A stretch of DNA of 64,000 nucleotides from Woodsholea maritima DSM 17123 (GTDB taxonomy: Bacteria > Pseudomonadota > Alphaproteobacteria > Caulobacterales > Maricaulaceae): NCBI RefSeq assembly GCF_000382325.1, contig NZ_KB908056.1, positions 811,148-875,147 of the forward strand. The letters run 5' to 3'. The notes below the pieces were generated by a model. The model searched no databases. It saw only the letters and a program-made list of their open reading frames with translations, and was not told where the DNA came from. Of the stretch, positions 5,989 through 12,082 are shown piece after piece. Each line of letters begins with the position of its first letter. Position 1 is the stretch's first letter. The translations under genes and the position numbers were made by a program.

Positions 5989-6852
5989 TTAGGCGCGCGC
6001 GATCAGGCGCAGCGCTTGATGATAATGCATGGCTTCGACCATGCGGCCTTGATGGGAGATGGCCCCCTTGCCTACGTTTGCCGGATCTTCAAAGGCCGTG
6101 ACCAGAGCGCGGGCCGCCTCCAGCGCCGCCGCATCCGGGCGTAGTGCCGCGTGTACCCCCGCGATCTGATCGGGATGGATCAAGGTTTTCCCCTCAAAGC
6201 CCAAACGCAAGCCTTCTTGGGTTTGGGCGATCAAGCCCGCCTGATCGCGGAAATTATTATAAACCCCATCCAGGGCGATCAGGCCGAAAGCGCGCGCATG
6301 AAGGACAAGGGCCTGTAAATGCGCCACGATAGGACCGCGATCGCCATCACACAGACAATCCAGCCCCGCACACAGATCATTGGTACCCGCGATCAATCCG
6401 ATCAGATCAACATCCCCCGCGATCTCGCAAATCTCTTTCAGATTGACGATACCCAAAGGCGTTTCAATCACCGCCCATAAGGGCCCCGAGCATCCCAGCG
6501 TATTTAAATCCGCATGCGCCTCTTGAAGCGCTAACACGCTTTCAACCTTGGGAAGGGCGATGCCGTCAAAGCCCAGCTCTGCGGCCAGGGCTATATCAGC
6601 TTCAAACTCAGCCGTGTCGGGGGCATTGACCCGAAGCAATGTCTGAGAGGACGAGGCCCGCCAACTGGCAGCGGCAATGCGGGCATTTTCGCGCGCGGGC
6701 GCCTTTTGTCCTGGGCCAACCGCATCTTCAAGATCCAGGATCAGAAGGTCTGCGCCCAGATTTGGGGCCTTTTCCAGCGCGCGCGGCTTATCGCCGGGCA
6801 CATAAAGCGCACTTCGATGGGCCTTGTGACATTTTTGCTCTTCATTCGTCAT
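5989..6852 (-). CDS. HpcH/HpaI aldolase / citrate lyase beta-like (CitE) protein
   Basis: The 287-residue product shows the CitE-like TIM barrel: RSALYVPGDKPRALEKA, LILDLEDAVG with the acidic metal and substrate residues, PKVES, and IETPLGI. Free-standing CitE-like proteins cleave or make acyl-CoA thioesters such as malyl-CoA or citramalyl-CoA; which one here cannot be told. The start is set at ATG 6852 (MTNEEQK); the frame runs on upstream to 6939, but that would overlap the divergent pdxK gene. Only 25 bases separate the two starts, and no Shine-Dalgarno sequence is visible. Confidence 0.88.
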   Translation of the reverse strand: MTNEEQKCHKAHRSALYVPGDKPRALEKAPNLGADLLILDLEDAVGPGQKAPARENARIAAASWRASSSQTLLRVNAPDTAEFEADIALAAELGFDGIALPKVESVLALQEAHADLNTLGCSGPLWAVIETPLGIVNLKEICEIAGDVDLIGLIAGTNDLCAGLDCLCDGDRGPIVAHLQALVLHARAFGLIALDGVYNNFRDQAGLIAQTQEGLRLGFEGKTLIHPDQIAGVHAALRPDAAALEAARALVTAFEDPANVGKGAISHQGRMVEAMHYHQALRLIARA

Positions 6853-6877
6853 CGCGTTACGGCCTATATCAGAGTTT
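6853..6877. promoter_or_regulatory. Shared divergent promoter core between citE-like and pdxK-DUF429
   Basis: Only 25 bases separate the two divergent start codons. TATATC at 6865-6870 reads as a -10 element for the plus-strand gene, with the ATG 7 bases later. Its complement GATATA is a -10 for the minus-strand gene, with the ATG 12 bases later. Neither gene has a ribosome-binding site, so leaderless or near-leaderless transcripts from overlapping promoters are likely. Confidence 0.4.
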
Positions 6878-8437
6878 ATGCAGAACGCCATCCTTCTCAC
6901 TTCCCATGTCGCAGGATCACGTATCGGCGGGCATGTCACGCAAACCCTGCTTCACCAAGCCGGGATTGGAACGATCTTTTGTCCCACGGTTTTGTTTGGC
7001 CGTCATCCCGGTCGTGGAATACCCGGCGGCGGGGCCGTCAGTGATGAGACTTTCCTGGGCCTGATCGAAGGAATACGCGCCGAAGGTTGGAGCCATGAAT
7101 GCGATGCGATCTTTACCGGATATTTCGCCAGCACCGCCCAGGTCATGGCCGCCGCACGCCTGATAGATGAAGCCAAAAGCCTAAACCCCGCCGTCAAAGT
7201 CCTGGTCGATCCCATCATTGGCGATGGTCCAGCGAATGGGCAAGCGTCAGGCCATTATGTCAAAGCCGAGGTCGCCGAAGCGATCAGCCGCGAGCTGATC
7301 AAGCGCGCCGATCTGATCACACCCAATGCCTATGAGCTGGCCTGGTTGACCGGGCGCGCCATCGCATCCCCCTTTGATGGGGCCAAGGCCGCCGCTGAGC
7401 TAGGAAAGCCTTGTATCGCGACCTCCATCCCGGTGCCCAGTGGCAATGATCAGCTGGGCGTTCTGATCCATGCTGAGGGCAGCGATTTCCTAATCCAGAC
7501 CGATTTGCTCGCGGGGGCCCCCAATGGCACCGGCGATGCCTTCGCGGCCATCGTGCTCACCCATTGGCTCAACCGGGTCTCGCTCAAACGCTGCGCAGAG
7601 ATTGCCACCGCGCGCCTGGACCATCTCTTGAAACTCAGCCTAGAGCGCTATGCCCCGGACTTGATCCTTGATCGCGATGCCATGAAGACCCGCTTGCCTC
7701 GGATGCAAGCCCAAAGGGTGGGGGCCCAGCATCCGGCCTGGGTGATGGGCCTGGATGGCGCGCCGGGCGGATGGGTCGGGGTTTTGATTGATCTCAATGG
7801 TTTGGAACAGCCGCGCCGTTCGGCCTATGCCACGTTTGAAGGGGCGCTGAATGCGCCTGAACGCCCCCATATCATTGCGGTGGATATGCCCATCGGCTTT
7901 GATGCCAAGGCCGAGATTGGCGGGCGCCAATGTGATCGCCTGGCCCGAATGCGGCTAGGCCCGCGCAAATCCTCGATCTTCTCCGCACCCTCGCGCAAGG
8001 CCCTGGTGGCGACCAATTATGATGCCGCCCAGATCGTCAATAAGGCGGACGGGGGACCGGGGCTTTCCAAACAGGCCTATAATCTCTTCCCGAAACTGCG
8101 CGAGCTGGATAACGCCATGCGTCCCAGCCTGGAAGGCTGCGTGCATGAGGTCCACCCGGAGCTGACCTTCACCCTGCTGGCCGGCAAGCCCATGACCTAT
8201 AGCAAGAAAACGCGCGAGGGCCGCGCAGAGCGGCTTAAAATCCTCGAAGGTCATGGCCTGATGCGCGATGTGTTTGAGCCCCACCCCTTCCCCAGCACAA
8301 CCGCCAATAAGGATGATCTGGTCGATGCGGGGGCCTGTGCCTTAACCGCGGTACGCATCGCCGAAGGGCGCGCGCTAAGCCTGCCTGATGATCCGCCCCG
8401 CGATGCGCGCGGGCTTCGCATGGCGATCTTTGCTTAA
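6878..8437 (+). CDS. Pyridoxal kinase-like / DUF429 fusion protein
   Basis: This 519-residue protein joins two families. Residues 1 to ~270 are a PdxK/PdxY-type ribokinase-fold kinase (ILLTSHVAGSRIGGHV start, DPIIGD, LITPNAYELAWLTG, and the anion-hole motif GTGDAF), which would phosphorylate pyridoxal or a related B6 vitamer. Residues ~287-519 are a DUF429 domain, predicted to have an RNase H-like fold (MGLDGAPGGWVGV, VDMPIGF, CDRLARMRLGPRKSSIFSAP, VHPELTF). The linker is short and the frame is continuous, with no sign of a sequencing frameshift. The join suggests a functional link but DUF429 has no settled activity that I know of. Confidence 0.88.
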   Translation: MQNAILLTSHVAGSRIGGHVTQTLLHQAGIGTIFCPTVLFGRHPGRGIPGGGAVSDETFLGLIEGIRAEGWSHECDAIFTGYFASTAQVMAAARLIDEAKSLNPAVKVLVDPIIGDGPANGQASGHYVKAEVAEAISRELIKRADLITPNAYELAWLTGRAIASPFDGAKAAAELGKPCIATSIPVPSGNDQLGVLIHAEGSDFLIQTDLLAGAPNGTGDAFAAIVLTHWLNRVSLKRCAEIATARLDHLLKLSLERYAPDLILDRDAMKTRLPRMQAQRVGAQHPAWVMGLDGAPGGWVGVLIDLNGLEQPRRSAYATFEGALNAPERPHIIAVDMPIGFDAKAEIGGRQCDRLARMRLGPRKSSIFSAPSRKALVATNYDAAQIVNKADGGPGLSKQAYNLFPKLRELDNAMRPSLEGCVHEVHPELTFTLLAGKPMTYSKKTREGRAERLKILEGHGLMRDVFEPHPFPSTTANKDDLVDAGACALTAVRIAEGRALSLPDDPPRDARGLRMAIFA

Positions 8438-8488: not shown

Positions 8489-9637
8489 ATGAGCATAGAG
8501 ATCCATGGCCGCGTCGCCCCCGGGTTTGAGCCTGTGCGCGATGCCTTCGCAGACAATTTCGCCCGCACCGATGAAATCGGAGCTGCCTTCGCGCTCTATC
8601 GCGATGGTGAGAGCATTGTTGATATTTGGGCCGGTCACCGCGACCGCAAAAAGACCCTGCCCTGGCTGGAAGACACCATCGTGCCGGTCTTTTCCACCGG
8701 TAAAGCGATAACCGCGCTGGTCATGGCCTGGTTGGTGGATCAGGGTCGCTTTTCCTATGATGATCCGATGACGGAGTATTGGCCAGACTTTGGACAAAAC
8801 GGCAAGGACGCCATTACGATCGCTCAGGCCCTGTCCCACCAGGCCGGTCTCTCAGGCCCCGCCACACCGATGGAGCCCAGCCAATGGTTCGACCGGGAGT
8901 TTATTGAAAGCTATTTCGCTGCCCAGGCCCCGCTATGGCCACTGAGTAAAGGGTCAGGCGGTGAAGGATCAGGCTATCACCCGGTCAGTTTTGGGGTTTT
9001 GGCCGATGCCATCGTGCGCCGGACCGATCCCAAAGGGCGCACCATCGGTGCCTTATTGAAAGAAGAGCTTGCCGGGCCACGCGATATTGATTTCCTGGTC
9101 GGCGTGCCAGAGGATCAGCATGAACGCGCGGCCGAACACATGCTACCGCCCAAGCCGCCCTTCCTGGGCAAGATCAATCCGTATAGAGAAGCCGCCTTCT
9201 TAAAACCTTATTCCAGCCCCGGTCGACGCGGCGCGGCGGCCTGGCGCTCGGCTGAGCTACCCGCCGCCAATGGCCATGGCACGGCGCGCGCCATAGCCGA
9301 GCTGATGAGCGTGTTCGCCCGCGGCGGCCTCTTACGTGATGAACGCTTGATCTCAGAGGCCACCCTCGCTGAAGCTTTAAAAGTGCGCGTGAGCGGGGAG
9401 GATAAGGTCCTGCCCTTCGATCTCGCTTTCGCCGCCGGGGTGATGCTCAACCGGAACAGCGGCCATTACGGCCCCGAACCCCAAACCGTCGGCCATTACG
9501 GCTTTGGCGGCTCATGCGGATTTGCTGACCCGGTGCAGGGCCTGTCGGGTGCTTATGTCATGAACCGGCAAATGGATGTGCTGGTCGGCGATGAACGCGC
9601 CATAGCCCTCATCAATGCCGCCTATGGGTGTGTATAA
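8489..9637 (+). CDS. Serine hydrolase of the beta-lactamase/EstB family
   Basis: The 382-residue product contains the class C beta-lactamase SxxK motif as S69-T-G-K72, a tyrosine region YHPVSFGVLADAIV, and a C-terminal HYGFGGSCGF in place of the KTG box. These are features of EstB-type esterases and related hydrolases of the beta-lactamase family (Pfam PF00144). No signal peptide is visible, so it is probably cytoplasmic and an esterase or amidase rather than a resistance enzyme. The substrate cannot be inferred. It ends near a terminator that serves the opposing rarD gene. Confidence 0.88.
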   Translation: MSIEIHGRVAPGFEPVRDAFADNFARTDEIGAAFALYRDGESIVDIWAGHRDRKKTLPWLEDTIVPVFSTGKAITALVMAWLVDQGRFSYDDPMTEYWPDFGQNGKDAITIAQALSHQAGLSGPATPMEPSQWFDREFIESYFAAQAPLWPLSKGSGGEGSGYHPVSFGVLADAIVRRTDPKGRTIGALLKEELAGPRDIDFLVGVPEDQHERAAEHMLPPKPPFLGKINPYREAAFLKPYSSPGRRGAAAWRSAELPAANGHGTARAIAELMSVFARGGLLRDERLISEATLAEALKVRVSGEDKVLPFDLAFAAGVMLNRNSGHYGPEPQTVGHYGFGGSCGFADPVQGLSGAYVMNRQMDVLVGDERAIALINAAYGCV

Positions 9638-9681: not shown

Positions 9682-10710
9682 TTACACTTTATCCGCCGAG
9701 GATGATCGCTTCATCTTGCGCGCATAAAGCACCAAATCCCACACGAAGACCCCCAAGCCCAGCCAAATCAGGGCAAAGGTGATGGCATAGCTCCAGCTGA
9801 AGGCCTCACCATAGGCAAGCCCGGTTATGAATTGCAGGGTGGGGGCGACGAATTGCAAAACCCCCAGGGTGGCAAAGCTGACCCCGCGCGCGCCAATAAT
9901 GAACAGAAGCAGCGGCGCAACCGTCATCGGCCCGGCCAGCATCAACAAGATCGCCTGGCGCGGTCCTTCGAAAAAATGCCCATGGCCTTGGCTAAACTCA
10001 TAGCCCAGATAGAGGATGGACGGGATGGCAATGATCACAGTTTCCCAGAACTGACCCACCCGGCCATCCATTTTAATGGTTTTACGGATATAACCATACA
10101 GGGTGAAACTCGCCGCCAGGAACAGCCCGATCACCGGGATCTGACCCACTGCAATCACCTGATTGATCACGCCTAATCCGGCCAGGCTAACGGCCAACAG
10201 ACGCATCTTGCCAAAGCGCTCATGCGCGATGAACACCCCCACGGCCACATTCATCAAGGGATTGATGAAATAGCCCAAGGATACCGACAAAATCTTCCCC
10301 GCATTGATGGCAAAAATAAACGTCCACCAATTCGCGGCAATCAACACGCTGGTCGCGGCCAGGATCAACAGCGCGCGCCGATCGGCCAAAACGCCCAGCG
10401 CCTCTTTCCATTTTGACGCGGCGAGTAAGATTACCGCCAGGGTCGGCACCGACCAGACCGCCCGATGAAGCACGATCTCTGACGGGTCGGCAAAGGCCAG
10501 GAATTTATAAAAGATCGTGGACAGACCCCAGATCACATAGGCGGTAAAGGCAATCAAGCCCGCCTTTAAGGGGTCCATCCGATCACGGATCGCCGCGCTG
10601 ATATCGGGCGCGGGCACCGTCTTGGCCTCACCAACGCTGTGTTGCGCCCCGCTGTCGAGCGGTGTTTCGCCCGGCTGGAGCGGGTCATGGGGTAAGTCGT
10701 GCTCGCGCAT
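9682..10710 (-). CDS. rarD: RarD/EamA-type permease
   Basis: The 342-residue product has a hydrophilic N-terminus of about 45 residues followed by about ten membrane spans. The family sequence AYVIWGLSTIFYKFL, NWWTFIFAINAGKILSVSLGYF and PLLLFIIGARGVSFATLGVLQFVAPT identifies it as RarD, a drug/metabolite transporter relative often annotated as a chloramphenicol-sensitivity protein. The substrate is unknown. GAGGAG precedes the ATG at 10710; a start at 10578 (MDPLKAGLIAF) would give the usual family length, so the N-terminal extension is uncertain. Confidence 0.92.
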   Translation of the reverse strand: MREHDLPHDPLQPGETPLDSGAQHSVGEAKTVPAPDISAAIRDRMDPLKAGLIAFTAYVIWGLSTIFYKFLAFADPSEIVLHRAVWSVPTLAVILLAASKWKEALGVLADRRALLILAATSVLIAANWWTFIFAINAGKILSVSLGYFINPLMNVAVGVFIAHERFGKMRLLAVSLAGLGVINQVIAVGQIPVIGLFLAASFTLYGYIRKTIKMDGRVGQFWETVIIAIPSILYLGYEFSQGHGHFFEGPRQAILLMLAGPMTVAPLLLFIIGARGVSFATLGVLQFVAPTLQFITGLAYGEAFSWSYAITFALIWLGLGVFVWDLVLYARKMKRSSSADKV

Positions 10711-10806: not shown

Positions 10807-11832
10807 CTAGGCGCGAAGATGTCCCCGGTTCAGCAAAGTCTCAGCGATTTGAACGGCGTTGAGCGCCGCGCCTTTACGCAGATTGTCTGAGACGATCCAC
10901 ATCGCCAGACCGTTTTCAACCGTGGGATCATTGCGAACCCGGCTGACAAAGGTGGCAAATTCGCCCACGCTTTCAACCGGCGTGACAAAGGCCGGATCAT
11001 CATCATCGGCGCGGTCGATCAGCATCAGGCCCGGGGCCTCACGCAGCAGATTGCGCGCTTCATCCGGCTCCAAGGCCTCTTCCAGCTCCAGATGGGCCGC
11101 CACGCAATGGCCGACAAACACCGGAACGCGCGCGCAGGTCGCAAACAGCTTGATCGAGGGATCCAAGATTTTCTTGGTCTCCACCGTCATCTTCCATTCT
11201 TCCTTGGTTGATCCGTCTTCCATAAAGTCATCAATCTTGGGAATGACATTGAAGGCGATCTGCTTGGGAAAGACGCTCGGCTCGATCGGGTCATTGACAT
11301 AAATAGCGCGGGTCTGGGTCCACAGCTCATCCATCGCCTCTTGCCCACCGCCAGACACCGATTGATAGGTCGCAACCGAAGCGCGCTTGATCTTGGCGCG
11401 ATCGTGGATGGGTTTCAGGGCCACAACCGTCTGAATGGTTGAACAATTGGGGTTTGCGATGATGTTTTTCTTCTTCACGCCATCCACCGTTTCGGGGTTG
11501 ACTTCAGGCACCACCAGCGGGACGTCCGGGTCCATGCGCCAGGCCGAGGAATTGTCGATAACAATCGCGCCCGCGGCCGCAATTTTCGGCGCCCACACTT
11601 TCGAAGGCTCACCGCCCGCGCTCATCAACACCAGATCAACGCTGGAATAATCAAAGGTCTCAACATCTTTAACCTTCAAGGTTTTGTCCCCATATGACAC
11701 TTCGCGGCCCACAGATTTACGGGTCGCCAGTGCATAGACTGTCTCAGCGGGGAACATGCGCTCGGCCAAAATGGTCAACATTTCCTTGCCTACCGCGCCT
11801 GTAGCACCAAAAACCGCAACTTTTAAACCCAT
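10807..11832 (-). CDS. asd: Aspartate-semialdehyde dehydrogenase
   Basis: The 341-residue product starts MGLKVAVFGATGAVGKEML, an NADP-binding Rossmann start, and has the catalytic cysteine in NPNCSTIQ, the histidine in GHCVAAHLELE and the SVSGGGQEAM segment. It converts aspartyl phosphate to aspartate semialdehyde for lysine/diaminopimelate, threonine and methionine synthesis. ATG 11832 is preceded by GGAGG at a good distance; the frame extends to 11877 without support. It is a single gene here, not in an amino-acid operon. Confidence 0.97.
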   Translation of the reverse strand: MGLKVAVFGATGAVGKEMLTILAERMFPAETVYALATRKSVGREVSYGDKTLKVKDVETFDYSSVDLVLMSAGGEPSKVWAPKIAAAGAIVIDNSSAWRMDPDVPLVVPEVNPETVDGVKKKNIIANPNCSTIQTVVALKPIHDRAKIKRASVATYQSVSGGGQEAMDELWTQTRAIYVNDPIEPSVFPKQIAFNVIPKIDDFMEDGSTKEEWKMTVETKKILDPSIKLFATCARVPVFVGHCVAAHLELEEALEPDEARNLLREAPGLMLIDRADDDDPAFVTPVESVGEFATFVSRVRNDPTVENGLAMWIVSDNLRKGAALNAVQIAETLLNRGHLRA

Positions 11833-12082
11833 GGGAAACCTCCAACGCTTCATGCGCCTGCACCCTAGACCGCTCATATAAGCGCGACAACGCTTGTGCG
11901 CTGCAAGTCCCCGGGGTTTGGCAGAATCCTAGGGGTAAATGGCTCTGAGTTAAGGAGAGCCTTAACCTTAACTGCGTTTTCATTATATGTATGCAGCGAA
12001 TTGGCTTGGGATTCGCATGACACCGATGCGTGATCCTGTTTTGGGTCAAGTCCTTAAAAACGCGAACAAAGAGGTCGCGACT

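Follow-up and report, generated by a model that had tools for sequence, protein, structure and literature searches.

The DUF429 domain is spread over bacteria and archaea, and one activity has been reported for it, that of an RNase HII in the RelZ protein (MS_RHII-RSD) of M. smegmatis, whose DUF429 domain reportedly cleaves RNA:DNA hybrids (PMC4429107, PMC7591505). In RelZ the domain is N-terminal and fused to a small-molecule phosphotransfer enzyme, a (p)ppGpp synthetase, and interdependence of the two domains was reported (PMC7591505). DUF429 has been placed in the RNase H-like superfamily, and it also occurs in DUF429-NUDIX proteins, where it is likewise paired with a phosphate-ester enzyme, in that case without a kinase (PMC3985635). 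A combination of DUF429 with a phosphomethylpyrimidine kinase domain was mentioned in 2011 for a handful of bacteria (PMC3153485), in a wording that follows the Pfam name and hence points to thiamin.

In the window analyzed here (the whole stretch of 64,000 nucleotides from Woodsholea maritima DSM 17123), a single frame running from ATG to TAA without interruption encodes a protein of 519 amino acids (Table 1), of which the 3.1-Mb genome contains one full-length copy. As in RelZ, DUF429 is joined to a small-molecule phosphotransfer enzyme, but here it is the C-terminal part, its partner is a different enzyme, and nuclease activity is reported for RelZ only. Pfam recognizes Phos_pyr_kin at residues 74-251 (E 2e-11) and DUF429 (PF04250) at residues 291-507 (E 1.3e-54; positions 1-213 of the 214-position profile; 185.6 bits against a gathering score of 23). 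By profile matches and predicted folds, the N-terminal half is an intact PdxK/PdxY-type kinase and the C-terminal half an intact DUF429 domain of RuvC-like fold. A sequence-only reading had described one continuous frame joining a PdxK/PdxY-like kinase to a full DUF429 domain, both with their core motifs; Pfam, NCBIfam and the open frame bear this out, as do the GTGD, NxxE and DPxxGD motifs of the kinase and the Asp tetrad and full profile of DUF429. The same reading called the pairing unfamiliar, which stands for its vitamin B6 identity but not for the combination as such, given the mention of 2011. The open literature searched yielded no paper dealing with the B6 identity, with the operon, with a dehydratase link or with a lost metal site.

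Table 1. Features of the fused gene and its neighbours (positions in the window)
Feature	Position	Strand	Basis or conservation
Fused gene, B6-type kinase and DUF429, 519 aa	6878..8437	+	Open frame; Pfam; kept in 35/137 family genomes
Kinase half, PdxK/PdxY type, residues 1-270	6878..7687	+	NCBIfam, PDB sequence and fold matches
GTGD anion-hole/catalytic motif, residues 217-220	7526..7537	+	
Junction, residues 271-287, predicted ordered, pLDDT 94-97	7688..7738	+	
DUF429 half, residues 288-519, RuvC-like RNase H fold	7739..8434	+	Pfam; AlphaFold2; fold matches
D293, first putative metal ligand (GxDG)	7754..7756	+	Present in 47/49 DUF429s; lost in L010, L186, L097
D336, second putative metal ligand (VDMP)	7883..7885	+	Present in 49/49 DUF429s
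D480 and D483 (DLVD), putative metal ligands, RuvC-like DxxD spacing	8315..8326	+	Each 48/49
CitE-like (HpcH/HpaI aldolase) gene, divergent neighbour	5989..6855	-	Pfam; beside kinase in f1, f8, f41
Serine beta-lactamase-family gene, downstream neighbour	8489..9637	+	Conserved in most f1 loci
EamA transporter gene	9682..10710	-	Same neighbourhood in kinase-only f1 relatives
Aspartate-semialdehyde dehydrogenase gene (asd)	10807..11877	-	Kept in f1, f8 and rhizobial pdxY loci

Identity of the kinase half

The best NCBIfam matches of the kinase half are PdxY (141 bits) and PdxK (123 bits). Since these scores lie below the equivalog cut-offs (292 and 342, respectively; for TIGR00687, 94.6 against 144.5), the enzyme was filed as PdxK/PdxY-type, with the exact vitamer left unassigned. 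Among PDB sequences the best matches are E. coli PdxK (2ddm; E 1.9e-21) and other pyridoxal kinases, and in a fold search of the PDB pyridoxal kinases are also the nearest relatives of the ribokinase-like fold: the best 40 of 50 matches are PdxK/PdxY-type kinases (Z 31.7-36.8), two of these 40 being annotated as phosphomethylpyrimidine kinase. The match to Salmonella PdxK (5zwa) reaches Z 36.8, with an rmsd of 1.7 over 258 residues. With 2ddm, 5zwa and E. coli PdxY (1td2) the kinase half has in common the fold (Z 34.8-36.8, 24-28% identity), the three motifs named above and Tyr82; it differs from them in its scores below the NCBIfam cut-offs, in Asn216 where E. coli PdxK has a Lys (residue 229), and in the C-terminal DUF429 domain. 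We read this Lys, which Asn216 faces in the alignment, as the counterpart of the PL-bound Lys233 of Salmonella PdxK (named in the title of 5zwa). The adjoining GTGDAF motif spans residues 217-222. The catalytic GTGD, NxxE and DPxxGD residues are all present in the 519-residue protein and are retained in the other fused proteins where covered; the kinase catalytic positions inspected are invariant across all fused proteins covering each position.

A thiamin (HMP-P) kinase, as the literal Pfam name and the label of 2011 would have it, was rejected, as PdxY and PdxK far outscore ThiD and the second, weak match in the genome is located elsewhere. PdxJ and PdxH, the enzymes of de novo PLP synthesis, are encoded in the W. 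maritima genome, which argues that the kinase half is a salvage enzyme.

Fold and metal site of the DUF429 half

The whole-chain structure prediction proposed in the sequence-only reading was made with AlphaFold2 and gave a pLDDT of 96.7 and a pTM of 0.92 with an ordered junction; the DUF429 half alone was predicted with a pLDDT of 97.4. Together with the ordered junction these values indicate that kinase and DUF429 hold fixed relative positions, as one predicted rigid unit, although a pTM is indirect evidence for how domains are arranged. The nearest solved folds of the DUF429 half are RuvC proteins (Z 8.5-8.7), and its best 14 VIA matches are all RuvC or MOC1/chloroplast resolvases (Z 8.0-8.7), in agreement with the published placement in the RNase H-like superfamily. 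The Foldseek match was weak (E 9e-3), and a profile search of PDB sequences found no DUF429 relative with a solved structure. A defence gene was also considered and rejected, there being no PADLOC family match at E 0.1.

The acidic metal-binding tetrad of the RNase H-like/RuvC superfamily is complete in the 519-residue protein. Its four residues, D293, D336, D480 and D483, are the likely metal ligands of DUF429, judging from conservation and DxxD spacing rather than from superposed coordinates. The RuvC/MOC1 Holliday-junction resolvases likewise carry an Asp tetrad, its DxxD located in the last helix; unlike these, DUF429 has extra helices, invariant R, K, E and H residues, and metabolic neighbours. 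Invariant charged residues include R350, R357, R373, D411, E424, H426, E428, R452 and D509, and K443 is present in 48 of 49 sequences.

The tetrad is intact in almost all stand-alone DUF429 proteins and in all full-length fused proteins, that of W. maritima included, apart from two lineages in which the kinase half is intact. In one of them, which comprises the sister species G004 and G1020 (loci L010 and L186), both D293S and D483N have occurred, and a sequencing error is excluded because two species share these changes; in the other (G435, locus L097) the replacements are D293A and D480N. For the single species pair G004/G1020, dN/dS is 0.054 in the kinase half and 0.087 in the DUF429 half, so that both are still under purifying selection. 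Judged from these substitution rates, loss of the metal site need not entail loss of the DUF429 domain, at least in this lineage. Two other invariant residues of DUF429 are lost in G337, another member of family f8 (H426Q and D411N). In G1022 (L188:326-1816, + strand) the fused frame breaks off near residue 463 and the remainder of DUF429 lies in another frame, which reflects either decay or a sequencing error.

Distribution and history of the fusion

The full-length fusion is found in 35 of the 137 genomes of the family sample, W. maritima counted, which represent 7 genera and include several single-contig genomes; the sample includes Glycocaulis profundi (L032) and Marinicauda salina (L033), both Maricaulaceae. 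The 34 further full-length family fusions show 38-57% identity. The same arrangement of domains is seen in fusions of 543 and 563 aa from family f8, which belongs to another taxonomic order, and in fusions of 529 and 502 aa from f262 and f251, families of a Hyphomicrobiales-type order. An assembly error, chance or a local frameshift was rejected, the fusion being common to 35 genomes. The fusion is genuine and old, and it recurs.

Phylogenetic trees show repeated shifts among fused, split and kinase-only states, and all three are found within genus g7: the genes are fused in G931 and G183 and separate but overlapping in G044 and G063, and G083 and G932 have the kinase only. The junction DNA of G044 and G063 lacks part of the linker, which places a TGA stop beside an ATG/GTG start, and both halves have stayed intact and overlapping after the split. 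The comparison suggests that a linker deletion in a fused ancestor gave rise to these split genes. The sequence-only reading had allowed that the fusion might be a local product, made by a base change between genes that close relatives keep apart; the 35 fused genomes speak against this, and the separate genes of G044 and G063 probably descend from a fused one. The kinase of G083 ends in the linker residues ALEHAKP, as in fused G931, and this remnant implies that DUF429 was there deleted from a fused gene. Since the kinase persists in some relatives that have lost DUF429 (G083, G932 and g3), it does not depend on that domain.

As to the order of fission, the alternative in which the fused crown is held monophyletic, with the split pairs of G044/G063 outside it, was not formally rejected (AU test, p = 0.124). 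On a single fusion event for all fused proteins the trees differ: the f8 and f1 fusions group together in the concatenated tree but not in the single-half trees, all of which were built without the f262 and f251 fusions.

Kinase-DUF429 gene pairs and their neighbourhood

In a search of 149 genomes of the Hyphomicrobiales-type order of G749, many of the kinase and DUF429 matches were direct neighbours. Among 40 DUF429 loci picked from the match list, so that the fractions do not describe a random sample, the kinase lies directly upstream on the same strand in 33, usually with a 4-bp overlap of the ATGA/GTGA type; two loci are fused, and the remaining five, all from f253, have no kinase. The sequence-only reading had advised looking in related genomes for the same fusion or for adjacent separate genes, and both were found (35 of 137 genomes fused in the family, 33 of 40 loci adjacent in this order). 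Comparison of the gene sequences shows that kinase and DUF429 form a conserved, usually overlapping alphaproteobacterial gene pair, fused in several lineages. By coordinates the two genes are unlinked in G1032, G655, G701, G479 and f174.

An old neighbourhood of CitE-like gene, kinase and asd is common to f1 and f8, and is partly present in f41 (CitE-like gene) and in rhizobial loci (asd), in each case with or without DUF429.

Association of DUF429 with PLP-using enzymes

In five f253 genomes the gene located 3' of DUF429 encodes a PALP-family serine/threonine dehydratase, a PLP enzyme (NCBIfam serine/threonine dehydratase, above cut-off). The same gene follows the fused kinase-DUF429 gene in G1046 and the kinase-DUF429 pair in G1048, G1093, G1078 and G1051, and lies slightly further on in G1071 and G1120. 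Kinase-DUF429-dehydratase gene runs occur in f262, f264, f248 and f267; these runs, or DUF429-dehydratase without the kinase (f253), are represented by loci L195, L201, L205, L208, L216, L218, L226, L229, L230 and L231. In eight f74 genomes (G910, G1249, G1158, G1270, G1286, G1239, G1280 and G1261) DUF429 and the dehydratase are a single open frame; one such frame of f74 lies at L128:517-3147 (- strand). The two are side by side in many more f74 genomes. By fusion or adjacency to both the kinase and the dehydratase, DUF429 is tied to a PLP-making and a PLP-using enzyme.

Two further neighbours were observed. A PLP-dependent gene of the O-acetylhomoserine sulfhydrylase type adjoins DUF429 on the opposite strand at L096, L099, L102 and L109, and a NUDIX hydrolase gene is directly 3' of DUF429 in four f74 genomes (L092, L125, L127 and L130).

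Proposed function and alternatives

The sequence-only reading held that the fusion could point to a role for DUF429, and the recurrent fusion and the pairing with the kinase support a role in B6 metabolism. We think it likely that kinase and DUF429 work together and, given that the PLP-dependent serine/threonine dehydratase is likewise coupled or fused to DUF429, that the role of alphaproteobacterial DUF429 lies in PLP supply. That the fused gene encodes a two-domain vitamin B6 salvage protein is the best overall explanation, to which we give about an even chance.

The main rival to a role in PLP supply is that DUF429 acts as a true RNase H/RuvC-like nuclease, as in RelZ, with the fusion coupling R-loop or other nucleic-acid processing to cofactor supply and nucleic acid modulating the kinase. 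The RuvC-like fold (Z 8.5-8.7) and the D/D/D/D tetrad with DxxD spacing agree with it, as do the reports that the RNase HII activity of the RelZ DUF429 domain needs the partner domain in cis and that its partner enzyme is inhibited by ssRNA, and the location of haloarchaeal DUF429 genes near DUF262 and 7-deazaguanine genes. We nevertheless consider a nuclease somewhat unlikely, since the alphaproteobacterial partners are metabolic (kinase, PLP-dependent dehydratase, NUDIX), tetrad residues are lost in two fused lineages, of which the one amenable to testing still conserves the domain, and the many invariant charged residues look to us more like a small-ligand pocket. The tetrad losses with intact kinase motifs (L010/L186 and L097), together with the low dN/dS of the L010/L186 pair, could also mean that DUF429 now serves the kinase only in a structural or regulatory way, its catalysis being irrelevant in fused proteins; this we regard as quite improbable, because a tetrad intact in all other full-length fused and almost all stand-alone proteins implies that catalysis is selected in most lineages.

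The association might instead be one of inherited gene order only, an old kinase-DUF429(-asd) neighbourhood in which small deletions fuse and split overlapping genes without functional meaning. Kinase, CitE-like gene and asd do keep their old neighbourhood whether or not DUF429 is present, fission and loss of DUF429 have both occurred within one genus, and in f54 DUF429 adjoins asd without a kinase. Against this, the kinase-first order and the 4-bp overlaps are retained in many families despite changing flanks, several lineages have acquired fusions, which join DUF429 to a partner at either end, and the G044/G063 halves are intact and overlapping after fission; fusion on both sides and the overlap kept after fission weaken this neutral explanation, and we deem it unlikely.

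Within the preferred reading of a B6 salvage protein, our proposal for the chemistry is tentative and has a rather less than even chance: the kinase half would phosphorylate pyridoxal-type vitamers, and the DUF429 domain packed beside it would take on the phosphorylated product. Using its Asp-bound metals, DUF429 might then clear PLP that is adducted or in surplus; alternatively, it might bind PLP and govern how this is released to a client enzyme. A part in binding or regulation would account for purifying selection in the lineage that has lost the metal ligands. In its most specific form, which is doubtful, DUF429 would be a PLP-handling protein (a carrier, release switch or PLP-adduct repair enzyme) standing between a PLP-making kinase and a PLP-using enzyme, the fusions on both sides would mark a PLP supply line, and a RuvC fold would have been recruited for a cofactor role. 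The link to PLP-making and PLP-using enzymes would give DUF429 a concrete role in one large bacterial class, and it bears on the question of how reactive PLP stays low and reaches its enzymes; the lineage that retains the domain without metal ligands is a natural experiment parting catalysis from binding.

DUF429 outside the vitamin B6 context

DUF429 without a nearby B6 gene is frequent and was found in f5, f54 and f70 and on haloarchaeal and Comamonadaceae plasmids. At six annotated plasmid loci outside Alphaproteobacteria there were no B6 neighbours of DUF429, and its B6 link is so far specific to Alphaproteobacteria. The haloarchaeal plasmid genes (L240 and L238) adjoin DUF262 and 7-deazaguanine synthesis genes, unlike the B6 context. 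In small f54 genomes (1.4 Mb; L098, L100 and L105), DUF429 occurs without the kinase between asd and sdhCD-like genes, convergent to asd and overlapping it by a few bases.
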